A stretch of 64,000 nt of DNA from Natrinema pallidum DSM 3751 (GTDB lineage Archaea > Halobacteriota > Halobacteria > Halobacteriales > Natrialbaceae): the NCBI RefSeq assembly GCF_000337615.1, contig NZ_AOII01000042.1:18625-82624 (forward strand). Direction: 5' to 3'. The position numbers and the translations under genes were made by a program. Positions 27,740 to 39,959 of this stretch are shown piece after piece. Numbering within the stretch: the first letter of the stretch is position 1; the number at the start of each line of letters is the position of its first letter. The notes beneath the pieces were generated by a model. The model worked only from the letters and a program-made list of their open reading frames with translations, searched no databases and was not told the DNA's origin.

Positions 27740-28129
27740 ATGCCCACGGTAGAATACCTCAACTACGAAGTACTGGACGATCAGGGCTGGGACATGGACG
27801 ACGACGACCTCTTCGAGCAGGCCGCCGATGCTGGCCTCGACGAGGAGGACTACGGCTCGCTCGATGTCGCCGAGGGCGAATACATCCTCGAGGCGGCCGA
27901 AGCACAGGGCTACGACTGGCCCTTCTCGTGTCGCGCCGGTGCCTGTGCGAACTGCGCCGCGATCGTCTTCGAGGGCGAGATCGACATGGACATGCAGCAG
28001 ATCCTCTCCGACGAGGAGGTCGAGGAGAAAAACGTCCGCCTGACCTGCATCGGGTCCGCCGAGACCGACGAGGTCAAAATCGTCTACAACGCCAAGCACC
28101 TCGACTACCTGCAGAACCGCGTCATTTAA
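27740..28129 (+). CDS. Halophilic [2Fe-2S] ferredoxin
   Basis: This is a plant-type ferredoxin of 129 residues. Cys64, Cys69, Cys72 and Cys103 form the C-x4-C-x2-C...C cluster site (CRAGACANC and LTC). The N-terminal acidic insertion (residues about 9-40) is the hallmark of haloarchaeal ferredoxins, which accept electrons from pyruvate and 2-oxoglutarate ferredoxin oxidoreductases. The ATG at 27740 gives the expected length of the well-known Halobacterium protein. A TATA-like AATTTAGG lies about 50 bases upstream, allowing a short leader. Confidence 0.96.
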
Positions 28130-28720
28130 ACCGACTGACGGTGCTTCGCCGCGCAGTTATCGATCCCCCCGTTTTCCGGGGTCGCATTGTCACTCTTTCC
28201 GCAGCGTCACATCACACGAGCAGCGCCGGCCTCGACGGTCGATTCGCGGGTTCCACATTCGGTTCGTCGCGGCCGGTACGGACCGGTCGGGAGCAGTCGC
28301 TCGAAGACGAGTAGCGGGCGGGCCGCGTCACCGCATCGGTCTGCGGCCCGTTCGCGGACGTGCTGTCTCCGTCGCTCGCCCGCCCCACTACTTGAATTAC
28401 CTCTCAATTGTCATGTGGCGAATGACGCACCAACCGCCACTTCAGTTGGGCTAACATGTCCTGTTGCGATCTATGTCTCTCCCACTCGGAACTATTAATT
28501 GAATACTTTTTCAACTGACTATCGATAGCGCGAGCAACGGAGCGGTTACGGCGGTACCTCGAGGACGAGGAACTTTGCGTTTTCCCCGTCTTGCTCGCGC
28601 TGGTTCACGTCGCGCTGCCCTTCCAGCGGCGGTTCGACCGGACGGGGTTCGAAACCGGTCGCCTCGAGCCGACTGCTGCATCACCTGCCGACGACCACCC
28701 CCCCACCGAATTCCACGATC
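28130..28720. other. 591-base gap: terminator-like hairpin, AT-rich promoter zone, possible gene remnant
   Basis: Just after the ferredoxin stop, CCCCG-TTTTC-CGGGG at 28167-28181 could end that transcript. From about 28390 to 28515 the sequence is AT-rich, with ACTATTAATTGAATAC resembling a promoter. From about 28550 to 28715 the plus strand reads as GC-rich codons (RRYLEDEELCVFPVLLALVH) without a start codon, possibly the end of a lost gene. No intact gene is visible. Confidence 0.45.
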
Positions 28721-29171
28721 ATGTCCACCACAGACACTACCGACGATTCGATTCGTCTCGCCTTCGTGTGCGTCCAGAACGCCGGCCGCTCTCAGATGGC
28801 CACCGCGTTCGCCGAACGCGAACGCGACCGCCGCGGCCTGGTGGACCCCGTCGAAATCCTGACCGGCGGCACCCGTCCCGCCGACGGCGTTCACGAGGCG
28901 GTGATCGCCGTCATGGACGAAGTCGGCGTCGATCTCACCGACCGAACACCCAGGGAGATCACGCCCGACGACCTCCGCTCGTGTGACACCGTCGCGACGA
29001 TGGGCTGTTCGACGCTCGAACTCGGCGACGTGGACAGCCGTCGACGTTCGCGACTGGGCGCTCGAGGACCTGGACGGTCGCGATCTCGAGGCAGTCCGTG
29101 AGATCCGCGACGGAATCGAGGCCCGAGTCGCCGCGCTCTTCGATGAGTTCAGCGACGTCTCCGGGAGTTAG
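28721..29171 (+). pseudogene. ArsC/low-molecular-weight phosphatase-like gene with frameshift
   Basis: The protein begins MSTTDTTDDSIRLAFVCVQN and contains the CX5R active site (Cys17 to Arg23), as in arsenate reductases and low-molecular-weight tyrosine phosphatases. After ...STLELGDVD the reading frame is lost. Removing one base, most simply the A at 29036, restores AVDVRDWALEDLDGRDLEAV and a family-like C-terminus ending at 29171, for a total of about 149 residues. As read, the frame instead continues with 20 unrelated residues to 29101. Either the gene is recently broken or this is an error; the catalytic loop is intact. Confidence 0.8.
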
Positions 29172-29662
29172 CCACTGACCGCTGGCCCGTGCAGGACGAG
29201 TTCGTGCACGGCGACGAGGACGACGACGGCGACCACGATGAGCGCGCCGTCGGCGAGCGACGGGAGGAGCCCCAGGGAGACGATCAGCGTCGTCGCGCAG
29301 GCGGGCGGGTGGACCGTCTCGGTCGCGAGCATCCCGCCCGTCGTGAGGACGACGGCGACCACGCCGCTGGCGACGACGCGGAACTGTGCGGTCGCGAGCA
29401 GCGGCGCGGCCGTGGTCATGCTCACACCGACCCCGGGCGCGATCGTGTGATACGCGACCAGCCCCGCCATGACGCCGATGACGTGACCGCCGATCACGCG
29501 CCGCGGCGCGGTCACGTTCCCTTCCCGAACCGTCGCTAACAGGAAGGCGGTGGGTCCCAGACTCGGGAAAATAAACGCCTGGCCGGTCAGCCAGGCCAGC
29601 AGGCCCGGAACCGCAAGCAGCACGCCGACGTACAGGGTCGAAACCGCCGCGCCCTCTCTCAT
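29168..29662 (-). CDS. HPP-family membrane protein
   Basis: The 164-residue protein has four or five membrane segments, the FIFPSLGPTAFLL motif near residue 30 and the family-naming VHPPACATT near residue 117. HPP proteins are widespread in bacteria, plants and haloarchaea; a plant/cyanobacterial relative has been linked to nitrite transport, but no general function is fixed. Its stop codon overlaps the end of the convergent ArsC-like gene by four bases. Confidence 0.88.
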   Translation of the reverse strand: MREGAAVSTLYVGVLLAVPGLLAWLTGQAFIFPSLGPTAFLLATVREGNVTAPRRVIGGHVIGVMAGLVAYHTIAPGVGVSMTTAAPLLATAQFRVVASGVVAVVLTTGGMLATETVHPPACATTLIVSLGLLPSLADGALIVVAVVVLVAVHELVLHGPAVSG

Positions 29663-29838
29663 GGGCGGCCCCTTGTCAGTACCGACGGATATACCGTTTG
29701 TTCCGACGCTTTTCGCGGAACCGGCGCATTACCGGTGGCCGTGGTCGATACCGCTCGTCGTTTCGTTCCGCGGTCACGTCGCGACCGTCCGCCCGGGAGG
29801 CCGAAAACGTAAGGGGACCGCGCTTCGGAGGAACGGTC

Positions 29839-30864
29839 GTGACGCTCGCTGGTGCCGTCGCGACGGGTCCGGACCTCCTTCGACTCGTCGCCGTCCCCGT
29901 CTTCGCCTGGACCGCGTACCGCGACATCGAGACCCGCCGGGTCTCGAGCACCGTCTGGATACCCCTCTCCCTGCTGGGGACCGCGCTGTTGCTCTGGGAC
30001 GGCTGGCTGGCCTGGCACGCCGGCGGGACCGCCTGGACCGACTCGTTCCTGATTCCGACGGCGATCAGTCTCGGACTGGTCGTCCCCATCGCCTACCTGT
30101 TCTGGTGGTTCGGCGGCTTCGGCGGGGCCGACGCCAAGGCCCTGCTCGTCCTCGCCGTCCTCTTCCCGACGTTTCCCGAGTACGCGCTCGGCTCGTGGAC
30201 GCTCCCGCTCGAGCCGACCACGACGATCGGTGCGTTCTCGTTTACCATCCTCACCAACGCCGTCCTGGTCGGCGTCGTGTTGCCGCTCGTCCTCGCCGTT
30301 CGCAACGCCGCCGCGGGACGGATCGCACCGGTCATGATCGTCGGCTGGCCGGTCGCGTGGGATCGGGTGCCGGAGACTCACGGTCGCCTGCTCGAGACGC
30401 CTGCGGGACTCTCTCAGGGCGGGCTCGATCTCGACGCGCTGCGGATGTACCTCCGCTGGCGGGGGCTCTCGCTGTCTGAGCTTCGCGACCGACCCGATCG
30501 GTACCGGAACCCGGCGACGCTGCCAGCCGAGCCGAACCCGCCGACCGACGGCGCGGTGACCGCGGATGGACCCGTTTGCGGGGACGGCGGCACGCTCGAG
30601 TCGGCCGCCGACGACGCGGGGCTCGAACGGGAGTCCGAGATGCCTTCGGCGTCCGACGACCCCTGGGGTGCCGCGGCGTTCTTGGACGATATCGACGGCT
30701 CGGCCTACGGGACGACGCCCGAGACGCTCCGCGACGGGCTCGAGGTGCTCGCGACCGCGGAGACGGTCTGGATTTCGCCCGGGACGCCGTTTCTCGTCCC
30801 GATCTTCGTCGGACTGCTGATCGCGCTGGTGTACGGCGATCTCCTGCTCGGAACGGTGTTCTGA
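29839..30864 (+). CDS. pibD: Type IV prepilin/archaellin peptidase (PibD, A24 family)
   Basis: This aspartic membrane peptidase processes prepilins and prearchaellins. The 341-residue protein from GTG 29839 has the first catalytic Asp in AYRDIETRRV (near residue 29) and the second in the GGADAKAL motif (near 95), flanked by membrane helices. Between residues about 190 and 310 is a long soluble, partly acidic loop before the last helix, a layout known from haloarchaeal PibD. The open frame starts at 29698, but the family begins near MTLAGAVATGPDLLRL. Confidence 0.85.
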   Translation: MTLAGAVATGPDLLRLVAVPVFAWTAYRDIETRRVSSTVWIPLSLLGTALLLWDGWLAWHAGGTAWTDSFLIPTAISLGLVVPIAYLFWWFGGFGGADAKALLVLAVLFPTFPEYALGSWTLPLEPTTTIGAFSFTILTNAVLVGVVLPLVLAVRNAAAGRIAPVMIVGWPVAWDRVPETHGRLLETPAGLSQGGLDLDALRMYLRWRGLSLSELRDRPDRYRNPATLPAEPNPPTDGAVTADGPVCGDGGTLESAADDAGLERESEMPSASDDPWGAAAFLDDIDGSAYGTTPETLRDGLEVLATAETVWISPGTPFLVPIFVGLLIALVYGDLLLGTVF

Positions 30865-31043
30865 CGGGAGATGGCGACGCGCTTCGCTTTCCCGACGCGG
30901 TAGCGAGCGCCGAACGGCGTTTCACGTCGCCCACACGAACGGGCGGCGGACGGCACGACGCGGGTGCTCCGGACGGGATCGCCTCCTCGAGTGCCCGCGA
31001 GGAGCACCCGCCCGAGGTGGTCGTAACGTGTTACTGTAGCCGC

Positions 31044-31271
31044 TTACAGCGTCCGCTCGTACAGCGGGACGAGCACCGTCCAGAAGAGCACGAAGGCGAC
31101 GCCGACGCCGATCAGCGCCAGCCACGGGTCGCCCCTGCCGGTCGGCGCGCCCATCGCGAGGAGGACGAAGGTCCCGGCGAACAACAGACAGCAAACGAGG
31201 ACGCTGCCGAGTTCGAGAGCCACGGCGACGGGATGGGCACGCAACTGGGCGACGATGCCGGCGAGGGCCAT
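31044..31271 (-). CDS. Small two-helix membrane protein
   Basis: A 75-residue protein from ATG 31271 (MALAGIVAQLRAHPVAVALE) has two strong hydrophobic segments, residues about 15-38 and 50-70, and ends in PLYERTL. A longer frame to 31472 encodes Arg-rich, shadow-like sequence and is not supported. It lies between pibD and the HIT gene. No family was recognised. Confidence 0.55.
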   Translation of the reverse strand: MALAGIVAQLRAHPVAVALELGSVLVCCLLFAGTFVLLAMGAPTGRGDPWLALIGVGVAFVLFWTVLVPLYERTL

Positions 31272-31496
31272 ACCCGAGCCACACACGGGGACGGCAAAAA
31301 CGTCACGGCACTGGGACCGCCGACGGCAGCCGTCGCCGACAGCATCGTCTTCGCGACGCGTCGCTGCCGGTCGCTCGAGCGCGCCCTCTCGGCCGGCCGC
31401 GTGGGCTGGCGCTCGAGGCGGACGGACGCGGACGCCGTCACGGTTTGGATGCTGTTCGCGTCGCGCCGACACGGAGCGGCGACTCCCACGCCCGGG

Positions 31497-31916
31497 TCAG
31501 GCTCGAGACTCGATGTCCGCGGCGATGTCGTCGAGTTCGTCGTCGGCGAGGTCGGGGCGATCGCCCGTGATGGCGTGAATGGGGCCGCCGCCGTCGCCCT
31601 CGAAGCGGGGGACGATGTGACAGTGGACGTGGGGGACCTCCTGCCCTGCCGCCTCGCCGTTGTTGAACGCGACGGTCGTCGCGTCGGCGTCGACGCTCTC
31701 CTCGACGGCGGGGACCATGCGGTGAACCGTGTCGTAGAGGGCTGCGGCGACGTCGTCCGGCACGTCGTTCAGCCGCTCGTACTCGTCTCTCGGGATCACC
31801 AGCGTGTGGCCCGGAGCCAGCGGGTTGGCGTCGAGGAACGCGACGGTCGTCTCGTCTTCGTACACGATTCGCGCCGGGATCTCTCCCTCCACGATCTGGC
31901 TGAAGATCGTACTCAT
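31497..31916 (-). CDS. HIT-family nucleotide hydrolase
   Basis: This is a histidine-triad protein of 139 residues. The catalytic motif HVHCHIVPRF (H-x-H-x-H) is at about residue 96, and the N-terminal FSQIVEGEIPARIVYED and GHTLVIPRDEY are typical of the HINT/Hit branch that hydrolyses adenosine phosphoramidates or other dinucleotides. It is monocistronic, with ATG at 31916. The gene borders the AT-richer accessory patch, so it marks the edge of the core chromosome there. Confidence 0.93.
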   Translation of the reverse strand: MSTIFSQIVEGEIPARIVYEDETTVAFLDANPLAPGHTLVIPRDEYERLNDVPDDVAAALYDTVHRMVPAVEESVDADATTVAFNNGEAAGQEVPHVHCHIVPRFEGDGGGPIHAITGDRPDLADDELDDIAADIESRA

Positions 31917-32040
31917 ACGCGGGTATGTGTCGGCTCGGCGTATGAAGGTTACCGACGAGTCGATCGGGGATCGGTTTCGATCGGACAGTTGGCGGCGTCC
32001 GCGATGTGCCACTATTGTATCGTTTGATATCGCTGTCGTA

Positions 32041-32436
32041 TCAACTACTGCTGTCGTATACGTGGTCCGGGCTTGTGAGGTCAATTACAATGAGTTCTTG
32101 TTCGTCATCCCATGTCGCTTTGTATCTTGTTGTCTTCTCTGGTACGATGTCGTATTCATTTAAGAACGCTCTACAGTTGACTTGTCCACCGTGCCCTTCT
32201 CGGTCACTTTTTCGAACCTTATACGATGCATCCGTCTCATCGACTCTCGGATGGAGGCCAACTTTCTGGTTCACAGCGTCGTTGAACAGCTCAACGTAGT
32301 CCTTTTCCTCGAAATATTCCGAGACAGCCGCATGATTAATTCCTACTGTGCCGCTTTTGCGAAGCGAAACACGAGGTCCAACTCCGGATTTGCCACCTGC
32401 TTTACCACCTTTCTTGGTAAACTTCTTGAACCCCAT
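32041..32436 (-). CDS. Plasmid/virus-like haloarchaeal protein in the AT-rich patch
   Basis: The 131-residue protein starts MGFKKFTKKGGKAGGKSGVG and continues with a VSLRKSGTVGINHAAVSEYF segment, a GGQVNCRAFLNEYDI segment and a YKATWDDEQELIVIDL C-terminus. I associate this pattern with conserved haloarchaeal proteins carried by proviruses and plasmids; the function is unknown. The DNA is clearly poorer in GC than the neighbours. ATG 32460 (MHEDILEYM...) is an alternative start. It sits beside an integrase remnant, supporting a mobile origin. Confidence 0.55.
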   Translation of the reverse strand: MGFKKFTKKGGKAGGKSGVGPRVSLRKSGTVGINHAAVSEYFEEKDYVELFNDAVNQKVGLHPRVDETDASYKVRKSDREGHGGQVNCRAFLNEYDIVPEKTTRYKATWDDEQELIVIDLTSPDHVYDSSS

Positions 32437-32549
32437 ATACTCCAATATATCCTCATGCATAATATGTCTTTCCCACTTACTTCTTTTACGGTTGTTTTTG
32501 CAACACTGACCTACTGAATTCCACCCTTCGGATAAATCAATGTGTATCT

Positions 32550-32711
32550 CTACCGTTTCCAGTTTACATGATCGAGCGCCTCCTGCAACGTACTGTCGTT
32601 CATGTCTCCCTTCAGTGCGGCGACATCGAATGAACGCCTAAGCGTGTCTGCGGTAGTTTTGCAACGGTTGCTTTCGTTCAGTCTTCGTACTTTCTTGCTT
32701 CTACAACTCAC
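32550..32711 (-). CDS. Possible 53-residue ORF overlapping the integrase end
   Basis: A GTG at 32711 opens a 53-codon frame (MSCRSKKVRRLNESNRCKTT, then ADTLRRSFDVAALKGDMNDS) that ends LDHVNWKR at 32550. It overlaps the stop region of the recombinase remnant by 11 bases, the arrangement expected of a small accessory gene translated with the integrase. Charge and hydrophobic patterns look protein-like, unlike most short frames here. There is no other support. Confidence 0.35.
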   Translation of the reverse strand: MSCRSKKVRRLNESNRCKTTADTLRRSFDVAALKGDMNDSTLQEALDHVNWKR

Positions 32712-33087
32712 TCGCTATCTCTTTCCCTCGGCGTTGTGCATCTTCCTCGAACATGGAACTGTCGTAGTGTTTCCGGAGGGTATCAGGAGCTGCGTTTACT
32801 CGACCACTGATTACCTCCCACGAAAGCTATTTTCCCCGCATACGGGTGACTGAACTACGCCGAAGGTCATAGGTACCAATGCTCTTATCGCACTTGTGCT
32901 TGTTATGCTTCGAGTACGCACGGTCACCTCAGACACTTACTGACGTGGTATCATGATATAGTGTGGACTTGGCTACCCAACCATAGGCTGAGGTTAGCAG
33001 TGTACCACTGTTTTCCTTCGGTTCCTTGCACTCGTGTTTGATGTAGTCGGAGATGACGGTCATCACCTCGATAGTGTTCAGATACGC
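32701..33087 (-). pseudogene. Tyrosine recombinase (integrase) remnant with two in-frame stops
   Basis: A single minus-strand frame of 129 codons reads AYLNTIEVMTVISDYIKH, then LLTSAYGWVAKSTLYH, DLRRSSVTRMRGK, and SWEVISGRVNAAPDTLRKHY before ending EIASEL. These blocks, in this order, are those of the C-terminal catalytic domain of haloarchaeal XerC/D-type integrases. The frame is interrupted by TGA at 32929-32931 and TAG at 32827-32829. The N-terminal SAM-like domain is missing, cut where the transposase fragment begins. It is dead as a single gene and marks a past integration. Confidence 0.8.
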
Positions 33088-33089
33088 CG

Positions 33090-33358
33090 ATTCCATGCGA
33101 AGGCGAATGATCTCAACCACTCATCAGCAATTTCTGCTTTGGTGTTACGAAAGCAGTTCGAAAATGATATAGTTCGTTGCTGAAATCGAGGCTGTGTCGA
33201 GAGCAAGCGTCTTGAAGCGGTGTTGCTCCATTGATGGGAAACACGGCGTCATCGACATCGTGTTTTTCACGTAGTTCAGCGAAGAATGTGTGAGCGAAGA
33301 CGTTTGTTCTCACTGGTTTAAGCTTTGTATAGAGCAAATCGCTTGTCTCAGGATCGAC
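33090..33358 (-). mobile_element. IS6-type transposase fragment, fused and deleted
   Basis: Two minus-strand pieces match the middle and end of haloarchaeal IS6-family DDE transposases. The first (33358-33182) reads VDPETSDLLYTKLKPVRTN, FFAELREKHDVDDAVF and GATPLQDACSRHSLDF; the second (33164-33090, another frame) reads FSNCFRNTKAEIADEW and RSFAFAWN. The stretch between them, which should hold the catalytic Glu region, is missing, and the second catalytic Asp reads Asn (VFPINGA). No inverted repeats are seen. The element is a remnant and cannot transpose. Confidence 0.75.
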
Positions 33359-33790
33359 GGTCTCGAGTTCGGTCAGCAGATGGGGCCGGCAGTTCGTTCG
33401 CTCTTCGGGAGTGGGTTCGCGATTGCTCGTCGGGTCGGTCGGGTCCACTGGAACGCATTTCACCGCGTTCGTGTAGTAGGCGTCGTCACCGTAGCCGATG
33501 TCGGCGACCAGCCGACGAATGCGCCGTCCGGAGTGGCGCGAGGTGTAGGCCTTGCCGGTCCAGTTCCCGCCCCGCCAGCGATCGGCGTCGGGGGTGCCGC
33601 GGCCAGGTGCCTCGCCGACGACCACGATGCTGGTGTCGAGGTCGCCGGTTCCCCACGAAATGCACTCCCGGGAGTCGGCAAGGGCTGAGCAACGGGTACA
33701 TCCGGGCTCGAGGACGTTGCGACTGGTCGGATAGGTTGGGTCGTCGGTGCCTGCGGAGTCGGGGTCGGTATCGGGAGCTGACGCGGGCAC
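33113..33790 (-). CDS. Chimeric ORF: N-terminal uracil-DNA glycosylase fused to transposase
   Basis: Residues 1-148 are the start of a family 4/5-type uracil-DNA glycosylase: CTRC (31-34) for the Fe-S cluster, the VVVGEAPGRGTPDADRW water-activating motif at 56-72 and YYTNAVKC near 105. From VDPE (145-148) the sequence becomes IS6-type transposase through residue 203, then 22 residues of out-of-frame transposase DNA. The glycosylase C-terminus with its HPS-type catalytic motif is absent. Both parents have a VDPE-like stretch at the joint. The product is very probably inactive as a glycosylase. Confidence 0.8.
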   Translation of the reverse strand: MPASAPDTDPDSAGTDDPTYPTSRNVLEPGCTRCSALADSRECISWGTGDLDTSIVVVGEAPGRGTPDADRWRGGNWTGKAYTSRHSGRRIRRLVADIGYGDDAYYTNAVKCVPVDPTDPTSNREPTPEERTNCRPHLLTELETVDPETSDLLYTKLKPVRTNVFAHTFFAELREKHDVDDAVFPINGATPLQDACSRHSLDFSNELYHFRTAFVTPKQKLLMSG

Positions 33791-33905
33791 GGTCGGAGAT
33801 ACGCTTCCAGCGGTTTAGCCCGGTCGATCCGAACATGTGAACAACGGTATCTTGTCACATTCGAGGGGACAAGTTTACGTTGGACGGGCGGCTAACGGTG
33901 TGCTA

Positions 33906-34136
33906 ATGACATCGATCGGCCCGGAACTACTCGCGGAATCACTCCAATTGGTCCTCTACGCTCTCATCGGGGGCGTGTTGACGGTCGGCGGCGTCCTCGT
34001 CGAACAGGCGAGCGTCCAGCACTACGGGTCCGGCGAGGCGATGATCGCGCTGTGGCTGGCCGCGCTCGGCGGCGTTATGCTCTATGCCGGCGCGTACGGA
34101 CTGGGCTACCAGAAGGTACTCTCGCAGTACGTCTGA
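33906..34136 (+). CDS. Small membrane protein
   Basis: A 76-residue protein from ATG 33906 (MTSIGPELLAESLQLVLYAL) has two hydrophobic segments, residues about 10-32 and 44-66, and ends GYQKVLSQYV. In-frame upstream sequence to 33837 is not protein-like. It is divergent from the glycosylase chimera. Similar short proteins are common in haloarchaea; the function is unknown. Confidence 0.6.
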   Translation: MTSIGPELLAESLQLVLYALIGGVLTVGGVLVEQASVQHYGSGEAMIALWLAALGGVMLYAGAYGLGYQKVLSQYV

Positions 34137-34332
34137 GCGCCGCAGGACTGGCTCGGTTTTCGAACTCTTATAGATGCTCGCCGTACCGTTCGCACACCGA
34201 ACGCACAGCCGTCGTGCGACGGGTGCGCTCGGCTGTCAGCGGTTCCGATAGCCCTTACCAGCGACCGGTGGCAACCATGCGGTGACCCGCAATATCGATT
34301 CCTCTTTACTGTCGGAGGCGATTAGGTGGGGT

Positions 34333-37300
34333 ATGAGCAGGTTCGGCGAGGTCGACGACCAGTACGACCCACACGAACTCGAGCAGCGGGTCTTCGAGTA
34401 CTGGGACGACGTCGATGCCTACGAGCAGACGGTCGAGCACCGATCGGACGGCGAGTCCTTCTTCTTCGTCGACGGTCCGCCGTACACGTCGGGGTCGGCG
34501 CACATGGGGACGACATGGAACAAATCGCTGAAGGACGTTTACCTCCGCTTTTTGCGAATGCAGGGGTACGACGTCACCGATCGGCCGGGCTACGACATGC
34601 ACGGGCTCCCGATCGAAACCCGTGTCGAGGAACGGCTGGGATTCGAAAATAAACAGGACATCGAGGAGTTCGGCGAGGAGAACTTCATCCAGGAGTGCAA
34701 GGACTACGCCGACGAGCAACTCGAGGGGCTTCAGGAGGACTTCCAGGACTTCGGCGTCTGGATGGACTGGGACGACCCCTACCGGACGGTCGAACCCGAG
34801 TACATGGAAGCTGCCTGGTGGGGGTTCTCGAAGGCGGCCGACCGCGGACTCGTCGAGAAGGGCCACCGCTCGATCTCGCAGTGTCCCCGGTGTGAGACCG
34901 CGATCGCGAACAACGAGGTCGAGTACGAGGACGTCGAGGACCCCTCGATCTACGTCAAATTCGATCTCGAGGATCGGGACGGGAAACTCGTCGTCTGGAC
35001 GACGACCCCGTGGACGGTCCCGGCGAACACCTTCGTCGCCGTCGACGAGGACGGTGACTACGTCGGCGTCCGGGCCGAGAGGGACGGCGAGGAGGAACTG
35101 CTGTACGTCGCCGAAGCGAAACACGAGGCGGTCCTGCGCGAGGGCCGCTACGATGACTACGAGGTCGTCGCGGAACACTCCGGCGAGGACCTGATCGGCT
35201 GGTCCTACGAGCACCCGCTCGCCGAGGAGGTGCCCGATCACGTCGACGCCGAGGGGACGTTCGAGGTCTACGCGGCCGACTACGTCGATACCGACGGCGA
35301 CGGCACCGGACTCGTCCACTCCGCGCCCGGCCACGGTGAAGTGGACTTCGAGCGCGGCCGCGAACTCGGATTCCCGATCTTCTGTCCGGTCGGCGGCGAC
35401 GGCGTCTACACCGAAGAGGCCGGCAAGTACGCGGGCCAGTTCGTCAAAGACGCCGATCCGGAGATCACGGCCGACCTCGAGGACAACGGCGCGTTGCTCG
35501 CCTCGGGGACGGTCCAGCACAGTTACGGTCACTGCTGGCGCTGTGACACGGGCATCCTCCAGATCGTCACCGACCAGTGGTTCATCACGATCACCGACGT
35601 CAAAGACGACCTCCTCGCGAACATCGAAGACAGCGAGTGGCACCCCGAGTGGGCGCGGGACAACCGCTTCCGTGATTTCGTCGAGGAGGCACCCGACTGG
35701 AACGTCTCCCGGCAGCGCTACTGGGGCATTCCGCTCCCGATCTGGACGCCCGAAGACCGGGACGACGACGAAGAGCGGCTCGTCATCAGCGACCGCGAGG
35801 AACTCGCGGACCGCGTCGATCAGGACATCGACCCGGACGCCGTCGACCTCCACAAGGACACGGTCGACGATCTGACGATCACCGAAGACGGGACCACCTA
35901 CACGCGCGTTCCGGACGTGTTCGACGTCTGGCTCGACTCCTCGGTCGCGTCGTGGGGCACCCTGAACTACCCCTCGGACGACAGCCGGTTCGACGACCTC
36001 TGGCCCGCCGACTTCATCCTCGAGGCTCACGACCAGACGCGGGGCTGGTTCTGGTCCCAGTTGGGGATGGGGACCGCGGCGCTCGGCGAGAGCCCGTATC
36101 AGGAGGTTCTGATGCACGGCCACGCGCTCATGCCCGACGGCCGCGCGATGAGCAAATCCAAGGACATCCTGATCGACCCCCACGAGGCGATCGATCGCCA
36201 CGGCCGGGACGTCATGCGGCTGTTCCTCCTCTCGAACAACCCGCAGGGCGAGGACATGCGCTTCGACTGGGACGGGATGCAGACGATGGAGAACCACCTC
36301 CGGACGCTCTGGAACGTCTTCCGGTTCCCGCTGCCGTACATGCGGTTGGACGAGTTCGACCCCACGGCGACGACGCTCGAGGAGGTCGACGCGGACCTCG
36401 AACTGATCGACGAGTGGGTCCTCGCCCGCTTGCAGTCCACGAAGGCCGAGATGACCGCGGCCTTCGAGGACCGCCGGCAGGATCGGGCGCTCGAGGCGCT
36501 GATCGAGTTCGTCGTCGAGGACGTCTCGCGGTTCTACGTGCAGGCGGTCCGCGAGCGCATGTGGGCCGAGGAGGACAGCGGCTCGAAGACGGCCGCCTAT
36601 GCGACGATCTATCGGGTCCTCCGGGAGGGCGTCGCCCTGCTTGCACCGTACGCGCCGTTCATCAGCGAGCAGATCTACGGCACGCTCACCGGCGACGACG
36701 GGTTCGATACCGTCCACATGGAGGACTGGCCCGCCGTCGACGAGTACTGGGAGGACGAGCAACTCGAGACAGACGTCGCGCTCCTGCGCGCGATCGAGGA
36801 GGCCGGCGCGAACGCCCGTCAGCAGGCCGGCCGCAAGCTTCGCTGGCCCGTTCCGCGCGTCGTCGTGGCCGCCGACGATCAGCGGGTCGTCGACGCCGTT
36901 TCCCGCCACACCGAACTGCTCGAGGACCGGCTCAACGCCCGCGAGATCGAACTCGTCTCGCCGGACGACCGCTGGGAGGAGCTGCAGTACAGCGCCGAGG
37001 CCGACATGAGCGAACTCGGTCCGGCGTTCGGCGACCGCGCCGGCCAGGTCATGACCGCGCTCAACGAGGCCCGCATCGACGAGCCGAGCCTCGACGCGAT
37101 CGAGGACGCCGTTTCGGATGTCCTCGAGGAGAGCGCGGAGCCACGCTCCGCGGAAGACGCGAGCGGCGATGAGCCGCGAGCGCGACAGGAGATCACCGAC
37201 GAGATGGTTTCCTTCGTGACCCAGACGCCGGACAGCGTCGCCGGCACCGCGTTTAGCACCGACGGCGACGACCGGGGCGTCGCCTACGTCGACGCCTCGC

Positions 37301-37590
37301 TGACCGACGACATCGAGAGCGAGGGCTACGCCCGCGAGGTCATCCGCCGCGTCCAGGAGATGCGCAAGGACCTCGAACTCGATGTCGAAGAGCGGATCGC
37401 ACTCGAGTTCGCGATCGACGACGATCGGATCGCCGATCTCGTCGACGAACGGGAGAGTCTGATCCGCGAGGAGGTTCGTGCCGACGAACGCCGGCCCGTC
37501 GAGGACGGCCACCGGAAGGAGTGGGATGTCGAGGACGTGTCGATGGAGATCGCGATCGAGCCGCTGGCGGCGGCGGAAGCATCGGACTAG
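34333..37590 (+). CDS. ileS: Isoleucyl-tRNA synthetase
   Basis: This class I synthetase (1085 residues) charges tRNA-Ile. The HIGH motif is HMGT at 57-60 after DGPPYTSGSA, the KMSKS loop is MSKSK at about 606-610, and the CP1 editing domain (about 185-400) and anticodon-binding domain (about 700 onward) are all present. Residues about 935-960 form an acidic, low-complexity insertion common in halophiles. The ATG at 34333 is chosen: it has G-rich SD-like sequence just upstream (AGGTGGGG). The frame is open to a GTG at 34282. It is a single-gene unit. Confidence 0.97.
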   Translation: MSRFGEVDDQYDPHELEQRVFEYWDDVDAYEQTVEHRSDGESFFFVDGPPYTSGSAHMGTTWNKSLKDVYLRFLRMQGYDVTDRPGYDMHGLPIETRVEERLGFENKQDIEEFGEENFIQECKDYADEQLEGLQEDFQDFGVWMDWDDPYRTVEPEYMEAAWWGFSKAADRGLVEKGHRSISQCPRCETAIANNEVEYEDVEDPSIYVKFDLEDRDGKLVVWTTTPWTVPANTFVAVDEDGDYVGVRAERDGEEELLYVAEAKHEAVLREGRYDDYEVVAEHSGEDLIGWSYEHPLAEEVPDHVDAEGTFEVYAADYVDTDGDGTGLVHSAPGHGEVDFERGRELGFPIFCPVGGDGVYTEEAGKYAGQFVKDADPEITADLEDNGALLASGTVQHSYGHCWRCDTGILQIVTDQWFITITDVKDDLLANIEDSEWHPEWARDNRFRDFVEEAPDWNVSRQRYWGIPLPIWTPEDRDDDEERLVISDREELADRVDQDIDPDAVDLHKDTVDDLTITEDGTTYTRVPDVFDVWLDSSVASWGTLNYPSDDSRFDDLWPADFILEAHDQTRGWFWSQLGMGTAALGESPYQEVLMHGHALMPDGRAMSKSKDILIDPHEAIDRHGRDVMRLFLLSNNPQGEDMRFDWDGMQTMENHLRTLWNVFRFPLPYMRLDEFDPTATTLEEVDADLELIDEWVLARLQSTKAEMTAAFEDRRQDRALEALIEFVVEDVSRFYVQAVRERMWAEEDSGSKTAAYATIYRVLREGVALLAPYAPFISEQIYGTLTGDDGFDTVHMEDWPAVDEYWEDEQLETDVALLRAIEEAGANARQQAGRKLRWPVPRVVVAADDQRVVDAVSRHTELLEDRLNAREIELVSPDDRWEELQYSAEADMSELGPAFGDRAGQVMTALNEARIDEPSLDAIEDAVSDVLEESAEPRSAEDASGDEPRARQEITDEMVSFVTQTPDSVAGTAFSTDGDDRGVAYVDASLTDDIESEGYAREVIRRVQEMRKDLELDVEERIALEFAIDDDRIADLVDERESLIREEVRADERRPVEDGHRKEWDVEDVSMEIAIEPLAAAEASD

Positions 37591-37868
37591 AGAGCCGCTG
37601 TCCGTCACCGCACACCCGTTCACGCGACGGCTGTGCGATCAGTGTGTCGATCGTTGCAGTTGGTATTATCGCGTCCCCCGAACGTCGCGAGAGCTGCAGC
37701 GGATGCGCACCCCTCGAACCTGAGCGGGGAACGGAGTGACCGTGAGCGGTGAGGCGGTTGTTTTCTGGCCGGAGTTGTGCGTAACCGGTCCCGACAGAAG
37801 GGAGTCACCCGAACGTGACAGTGACGCTGCCACAAACGTCTTGATCGCTGACTCACCAGAATCGAGTA

Positions 37869-39959
37869 GTGAACTCCCGTGTCGTCGGTCTCGCGGTCGT
37901 CGTCTTGCTCGTCGGAAGCCTGCCGGCCGGCGTCGGTGCCGGGGAGCCGTCCCGACCGGTCGACTCGCCGTCGGCAGCCAGCGTCGATATCGGACCCGCC
38001 GACGAGCCGCCCGCTTCGGTTGGGACGAGTGCCGGGTCGACGGCGAGCAGCGATACCGATAACGTCCTTTCCCGGACGACCGTCCTCCGCCACCGGCAGG
38101 ACGACCCCGACACCTTCGAGGTGGAGACGACGGTTCACGTCCCCGAGGCCGTGACGGCACTCGAGATCGAACTCGAACCGGGCGCGACCGTCGAGGAGAC
38201 TGCAGGACTCGAGCGGACGGACGAGCGGACGTTCGAGTGGGCCGGAGACGCCGCCGAGGCGACGATCCGGTACGCGATGCCGGCCGAGCGGCGGGGGAGC
38301 CAACAGCAGGGGGACGGCTCCGGAGAGGGGTACACGTTCGTCGATACCGGCGACTGGGGCGTGGTAGCGGTTCCGGACGTGTCGCTTTTCTACCGGCGAA
38401 CCGCGCCCGTCGGACTCGAGCGGACGGTCCGGGTCGACGGCCCGGGCGCGACCGGCGGTGATATCGCTTTCTTCGGCCCGGTAACGGTCCACGAGCGACC
38501 CGTCGACGGCGGGACGATCAGGCTGGCCGTCCCCGACGCTGCGACGCTCGAAGAGTCGCCGGACGCGGTACTGACCGCACTCGCGGACGCACGCGACCGC
38601 CTCACCGTCGGCGCACGGAGCGACGACGTATTCATGGTCGCGGTACCGAACGAGACCGACTGGGGCTCGAAGCGCGGGCTCCAGTACGGCGAGTCGGACG
38701 CGTGGGTCGTCGACAACGCCACGCTCGACGAGCGGAACCCGGTCTGGCTCCACGAATACGTCCACATCCGGCAGGATTTCGCCGACGGGACCGAGGTCGA
38801 CCCCGCGGTGGCGTGGGTTTCCGAGGGGCAGGCAGACTACTACGCCGGTCTGCTCGCCCTCGAGAGCGGCGCGACCGACTTCGGCGAGTTCCGATCGCTC
38901 CTCGAGCGCGGCGAGCGCGAGCCGTACGCCGGTGGCGTCCTCGCCGACCGGTCCACGTGGGACCACCCGGAGACCCACTACGCGAAGGGCACACTCGTCT
39001 ACGGTGAGATCGACCGCCGGCTGCGGCTCGCGACGGAGGGTGATCGGACGCTTGCGGACGTGTTCCGGTCGCTGAACGCCCAGGAGGAACCCGTGACCGA
39101 GGCGGCGTTCATGGACGCGCTCGAGGACGAAGGCGGACCGGCGGTCCGTACGGTCGCGGAGCGATACACGCGGACGGCGGAGACGCCCGAGATGTGGACC
39201 CGACGCGAACACGAGGCCGCCTTCGGCCGGTCGGCCGCGGTCTTCGAGCACGGACTGGGGTCCGGGCCGATCGACGTAGCCGATCGAGAGTGGCCGCGCT
39301 GGTCGGCGTCGGCAACCGGCGGTACCGACGGCGACGACCGCACGCTCATCGCGGTGCCGGCCGGCGAATCCGTGACGGTTCCGAGCGCGGCCGCCAACGT
39401 CGGCGAGCACGAGGGGACCTACGACGCGACGCTACAGGTCGACGGCCGCGTCGTCGATCACCGCCGGGGGACGCTCGCGCCCGGCGAGGATGCGACCCAC
39501 GCCCTCTCGTGGACGCCGTCCGAACCAGGTGAATACGATATCCGCGTCGGCTCGGGGCGGCTGACGGCGGTCGTCCGGTCGTCCTCGAGCGTGACCGTGA
39601 GGGAGCTGCAGGTCTCGCCCGACCGCATCGAACCCGGCGAGTCGGTGACGGCGACTGCGACGGTCGCGGCCGCCGGCGATCGGCCGGCCGCGGCTAGCCT
39701 CGCGTTCCGGACGGCCGACGGCGTCGCCGCGGAACGCGCGGTGGCGCTCCGGCCCGGCGAGACGACGACGGTCGACGCCACGCTCTGGTTCGACGAGGAC
39801 GGTCAGTACGAGGTCGCCGTTGGCGATCGAACGATGACGGTCGATGTCGGCGGCGACGCGTCGACACCAATGAGCGAGGAACTGCCCGGTTTCGGCGTGT
39901 CGGCGGCGCTGATAGCGATCGCACTCGTATTTGTCGGGGCGGGTCGTCGGCGCAGCTAA
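37869..39959 (+). CDS. Secreted HExxH metallopeptidase with PGF-CTERM anchor
   Basis: The 696-residue protein has a Sec signal peptide (about 1-24, AVVVLLVGSLPAGVGAG), a zinc site HEYVH at 295-299 with a likely third ligand Glu319 (WVSEGQADYY), giving a gluzincin-type arrangement, and a beta-sandwich region (about 480-650) with CARDB-like repeats. The C-terminus, ELPGFGVSAALIAIALVFVG then Arg-rich, is a PGF-CTERM signal cut by archaeosortase A, so the enzyme is lipid-anchored on the cell surface. The start is GTG 37869. The substrate is unknown. Confidence 0.85.
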   Translation: MNSRVVGLAVVVLLVGSLPAGVGAGEPSRPVDSPSAASVDIGPADEPPASVGTSAGSTASSDTDNVLSRTTVLRHRQDDPDTFEVETTVHVPEAVTALEIELEPGATVEETAGLERTDERTFEWAGDAAEATIRYAMPAERRGSQQQGDGSGEGYTFVDTGDWGVVAVPDVSLFYRRTAPVGLERTVRVDGPGATGGDIAFFGPVTVHERPVDGGTIRLAVPDAATLEESPDAVLTALADARDRLTVGARSDDVFMVAVPNETDWGSKRGLQYGESDAWVVDNATLDERNPVWLHEYVHIRQDFADGTEVDPAVAWVSEGQADYYAGLLALESGATDFGEFRSLLERGEREPYAGGVLADRSTWDHPETHYAKGTLVYGEIDRRLRLATEGDRTLADVFRSLNAQEEPVTEAAFMDALEDEGGPAVRTVAERYTRTAETPEMWTRREHEAAFGRSAAVFEHGLGSGPIDVADREWPRWSASATGGTDGDDRTLIAVPAGESVTVPSAAANVGEHEGTYDATLQVDGRVVDHRRGTLAPGEDATHALSWTPSEPGEYDIRVGSGRLTAVVRSSSSVTVRELQVSPDRIEPGESVTATATVAAAGDRPAAASLAFRTADGVAAERAVALRPGETTTVDATLWFDEDGQYEVAVGDRTMTVDVGGDASTPMSEELPGFGVSAALIAIALVFVGAGRRRS

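Follow-up and report, generated by a model that had tools for sequence, protein, structure and literature searches.

The closest described counterparts of the locus analyzed in this work are the family-4-like uracil-DNA glycosylase (UDG) paralogue of Natrinema gari JCM 14663 (G013), a protein of about 239 aa encoded by an intact gene at the same locus, and the ISH15/ISH29-type IS6 elements of haloarchaea. An adjacent deletion made by an IS6 element is expected to leave the IS whole and to have one endpoint at its terminus. The making of adjacent deletions as such is a documented activity of the family, as in IS26 (PMC9602291). No earlier description of a UDG/IS6 fusion in haloarchaea was found in our literature searches. 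The window considered here, i.e., the whole analyzed stretch of 64,000 nucleotides from Natrinema pallidum DSM 3751, harbors at 33113–33790 (minus strand) an open reading frame (ORF) that, on the basis of its homologies, we regard as a real in-frame chimera between a UDG paralogue and an ISH15-like IS6 transposase. Our verdict is that the chimera is true but ordinary, that is, a UDG paralogue pseudogene, and we suggest, with a probability of about 0.92, that a resident gene was turned into this pseudogene via a deletion of the microhomology type, which reached into debris left by earlier mobile elements.

The glycosylase half and its locus

In the ORF listing, the chimeric ORF encodes 225 aa from a GTG start. 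A previous sequence-only reading of this DNA had let it end at 33090, which has to be moved to 33113; the existence of the chimera and its division into a glycosylase (residues 1–148) followed by an IS6 transposase were borne out by the profile searches. Indeed, the Pfam UDG model PF03167 matches residues 47–148 (E = 2e-14, profile positions 2–85 of 141), the family-4 UDG models cover residues 31–149, and the IS6 transposase model NF033587 matches residues 145–206 (E = 5.7e-8, profile positions 90–150 of 202). The UDG-superfamily part (33347–33790, minus strand), delimited by PF03167 and by the N. gari orthologue, corresponds to the N-terminal ~60% of a ~240-aa gene. It shares with the N. gari paralogue the locus, the GTG start codon (the same as in the orthologues) and 85–87% identity over residues 1–147/149; unlike that paralogue, it is cut at codon ~148 and lacks the last ~90 residues. 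The sequence-only reading was also right in stating that the glycosylase C-terminus is gone, since homology ends at residue 148–149 and the HPSYQDVW motif, which in the orthologues lies ~50 residues further on, is absent.

This truncation is reflected in the profile matches. The type-4 UDG profile reaches position 164/184 in the intact N. gari protein and only 114/184 in the chimera, which scores 48.1 bits with TIGR00758 (cut-off 125.3) and 51.7 bits with NF040953 (cut-off 250); the intact orthologue is also below both cut-offs (69.6 and 79.4 bits, respectively). The complete UDG fold with the C-terminal HPS/HPA motif, by which an active family-4 UDG is recognized, is missing from the chimera. 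The four cysteines of the CxxC, KC and NC motifs, a presumed 4Fe-4S site, are kept, and three of the Cys positions align with Cys of the solved UDG 1l9g (first CxxC, KC, and the C of EQAAC). As a side observation, the intact paralogues (L039:3307-4023 in N. gari, and its orthologues) carry GGNWTGKAYTSRHSGR where family-4 enzymes show GxPFVGxAG, and the group may represent an uncharacterised haloarchaeal UDG subfamily.

The DNA alignment of the locus to N. gari, N. altunense and other genomes stops at 33351; with N. gari it picks up again at about 32008, and both flanks are about 92–97% identical to N. gari at the DNA level. In the latter, a HIT gene lies directly downstream of the UDG gene, and a small membrane gene and ileS are on the other side. 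The corresponding HIT-family gene of the window (31497–31916, minus strand; PF01230, E = 1e-29) is intact and, according to synteny, is the ancestral downstream neighbor. Judging from this gene order, the UDG paralogue is a resident gene at its conserved place beside HIT and ileS and has not moved; the idea of a “captured” glycosylase gene, put forward in the sequence-only reading, must therefore be abandoned. Compared with N. gari, ~375 bp are absent, which comprise the final ~90 codons of the UDG gene and the spacer. A simple insertion that displaced the end of the gene was considered and rejected: a tblastn search of the N. gari protein against positions 28000–38000 of the window returned residues 1–149 only, which indicates that the C-terminus was deleted and not displaced.

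The spacer between the UDG and HIT genes is itself variable within the genus. In several Natrinema genomes (L042, L043, L093, L094, L097, L100) it contains a variable gene set, missing in N. gari and in this genome, which by eye includes glycerophosphotransferase-, nucleotidyltransferase- and glycerophosphodiesterase-like genes. The possibility that the spacer represents an integration hot spot was rejected, because the genes held there, again by eye, look like ordinary chromosomal genes and no mobile DNA accompanies them.

The transposase half and the foreign block

In place of the ~375 bp of N. gari, the window carries a foreign block of 1342 bp (32010–33351), recognized from the DNA alignment and from its G+C content. 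A fall in G+C at the joint had already been pointed out from the sequence alone, together with the change of a catalytic Asp of the transposase to Asn, and both remarks hold; the G+C content is 0.68 for the UDG part and 0.47 for the block.

The block begins with an IS6-family, ISH15-like relic (33070–33358, minus strand), which was delimited by blastn against the complete IS copies of relatives and by NF033587, and which corresponds to an IS of ~700 bp from nt ~356 through to its right end. Its identity to complete copies is about 72% from nt ~356 and 78–83% past an internal deletion of ~55 bp, which is accompanied by a frameshift near 33165–33172; the plasmid sequences matching the relic are annotated as IS6/ISH15/ISH29. 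The right terminal repeat, TATCTGAACACTATC, is retained. Of the features of an IS6 insertion sequence, i.e., two terminal inverted repeats and an 8-bp target duplication, only the right end is found, the left half being deleted. Thus, the relic has the right end and 72–83% DNA identity in common with the ISH15/ISH29-type elements, and differs from them in lacking the left half, ~55 bp of internal sequence and the DDE triad. In the transposase half, all three catalytic residues are lost: the FLVDGA motif reads FPINGA, the Asn occupying what we take to be the position of the second Asp, while the Glu presumably fell in the ~55-bp deletion and the first Asp in the missing half.

The NF033587 match covers only 61/202 positions and scores 32.7 bits (cut-off 125). 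An IS6 copy located elsewhere in the same genome is 62% identical to residues 142–212 of the chimera (E = 3.7e-26), so that the resemblance is not due to chance, and the expectation that the residues beyond 148 would align with transposases is confirmed. According to these similarities, the transposase half is homologous to the IS6 family, but it is a fragment. Owing to the IS deletion and the frameshift after residue ~204, the ORF ends with ~20 residues that are out of frame relative to the transposase.

Exactly where the right end of the IS stops, a second relic begins, namely a tyrosine recombinase/integrase gene of which ~120 C-terminal codons are left (32704–33069, minus strand; 45% identity, E = 8e-26), whose frame is interrupted by a TGA and a TAG and whose N-terminal part is gone. 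It was identified by similarity to stretches of 394 aa that contain Phage_integrase and SAM-like domains; the relic itself gave no direct Pfam match, no match was found in plasmids, and the phage matches were limited to E values of 0.1–0.8 (three matches, two to XerC/D-like integrases and one to an integrase). The block also contains an intact passenger ORF of 139 aa (32041–32460, minus strand), belonging to a sporadic haloarchaeal family found in 30/391 genomes of the class, with best homologues at 39–49% identity. It gave nothing above noise against Pfam and PHROG, and no match in plasmids or viral contigs. The family shares the motif RKSGTIGVN...TTQYxPxWDDE.

The joint and its proposed origin

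The joint, GTCGATCC, lies at 33351–33358 (minus strand) and is partly common to both parents. On the glycosylase side, the joint codon reads GTCGAGCC in N. altunense and ATCGATCC in other Natrinema UDGs; on the IS side, GTCGATCCTGAGACAA is found in a relative within this genome. The common stretch, GTCGA(TCC), is 5–8 bp long, and both parents read it in one and the same phase as Val-Asp/Glu-Pro, in agreement with the short VDPE-like similarity that the sequence-only reading had suspected. Since the phase is the same on the two sides, a deletion using this stretch gives an in-frame joint automatically, and the open frame does not represent evidence of selection.

On this basis, we propose that foreign DNA with a tyrosine integrase gene and a small ORF would have arrived between the UDG and HIT genes, its HIT-side edge lying near 32010, and that an ISH15-like IS6 element then entered the integrase gene, as shown by the IS right end abutting integrase codons. 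An illegitimate deletion at GTCGA(TCC), whose endpoints can be read directly and whose mechanism we infer, would subsequently have fused codon ~148 of the UDG gene with the middle of the element, taking away the rest of the UDG gene, the N-terminal part of the integrase and the left half of the IS. The decay visible in the block (the ~55-bp deletion and frameshift of the IS, the integrase stops and the Asp-to-Asn change) might have occurred either before or after this deletion, and it is by inference that the earlier insertions are placed in the order given. A plain jump of the IS into the UDG gene was rejected, as the element had sat in the foreign integrase gene downstream, and a later deletion connected the middle of the UDG gene to the middle of the IS. 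A common origin with the 15-kb element that interrupts the same gene in N. altunense (see below) was also rejected, as the latter has a different integrase, with a standard PF00589 match, and lies at a different codon.

The fusion might also have been produced by the IS6 transposase itself, through an adjacent deletion at the IS end and with no need of microhomology. Deletions of this kind are a documented activity of the family, but the endpoint observed falls within the transposase gene (nt ~356 of the ~700 of the IS) and not at the expected IS terminus, and we consider this route very improbable.

Decay of the chimera and loss of the gene in related species

The ORF at 33113–33790 is almost certainly a dead gene, resulting from an ordinary kind of genome decay; its product, if translated, should be inactive and would probably be unstable. 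One could alternatively imagine that the chimera works as a new protein, such as a DNA-binding or regulatory factor derived from the UDG and extended by a tail of transposase origin, given that the frame is open to residue 225, the start codon is retained and the UDG part is still well conserved. However, about 90 residues are missing from the UDG, the HPS motif among them, the transposase part is without any of its DDE residues and ends in an out-of-frame tail, and the fusion occurs in one genome only, so that a functional chimera is very unlikely. We would likewise give very little credence to a truncated fusion being expressed and kept in this lineage as a small protein that binds DNA or uracil. 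The dN/dS of the UDG part versus N. gari is 0.19, within the 0.13–0.35 found between intact genes, in a comparison dominated by the time preceding the fusion; as this value is no higher than that of intact genes, it is possible that purifying selection has acted on the UDG part since the fusion. The retention of the UDG reading frame and of the four cysteines likewise speaks against the pseudogene reading. In a comparison aimed at relaxed selection, the private substitutions of the UDG part were 8 non-synonymous and 9 synonymous in this genome, and 8 and 19, respectively, in N. gari; both comparisons fit decay and constraint alike. Lastly, the chance that the joint is an assembly error is very small: although the genome is a draft of 115 contigs and assemblies are often misjoined at IS elements, the joint lies within a 91-kb contig, and the relic is decayed and surrounded by unique DNA. 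The DNA most similar to the relic elsewhere in the genome is 70–82% identical, which makes the relic no recent repeat and its reads unlikely to be confused.

The UDG part is matched (E ≤ 1e-30) in 111/125 genomes of the family, and a fusion extending across residues 1–225 was found in none of the 124 others. The search for further glycosylases in this genome, which the sequence-only reading had envisaged, retrieved two paralogues that exceed the TIGR00758 cut-off and are standard family-4 UDGs, plus a third, weaker UDG. Mobile DNA has also interrupted this gene, independently and in different ways, in two further Natrinema genomes. In N. altunense AJ2, it is split at codon ~108 by a ~15-kb integrative element (L040:2727-17673, G008:C4) with an 11-bp direct repeat at its ends, ACGAACGCGGT; unlike in the chimera, this is an insertion and both halves are retained. 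In genome G014 (L095:2455-4098, G014:C2), residues 1–151 have been replaced by sequence with an OrfB_IS605 (TnpB-type) element and residues 152–228 alone remain; unlike in the chimera, it is the N-terminal part that was replaced. Within Natrinema, mobile DNA has thus disrupted the UDG paralogue at least three times independently, and such repeated loss suggests a gene that can be spared as long as other UDGs are present. The description of the fusion as clean and unusual appears overstated: neither half is alive, the IS half carries a deletion and a frameshift, and in sister species the gene was lost by other insertions. A caution for annotation also follows, in that the ORF, which could be labelled “uracil-DNA glycosylase” or “IS6 transposase”, is neither of the two.

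As for the other disrupting elements, that of G014 has a GC-rich terminal hairpin, and that of N. altunense AJ2 carries a tyrosine integrase (318 aa), a 1231-aa Eco57I/TaqI-like restriction-methylase, a PLD-domain protein and a DUF4268 protein, and looks like a mobile defence-type island.
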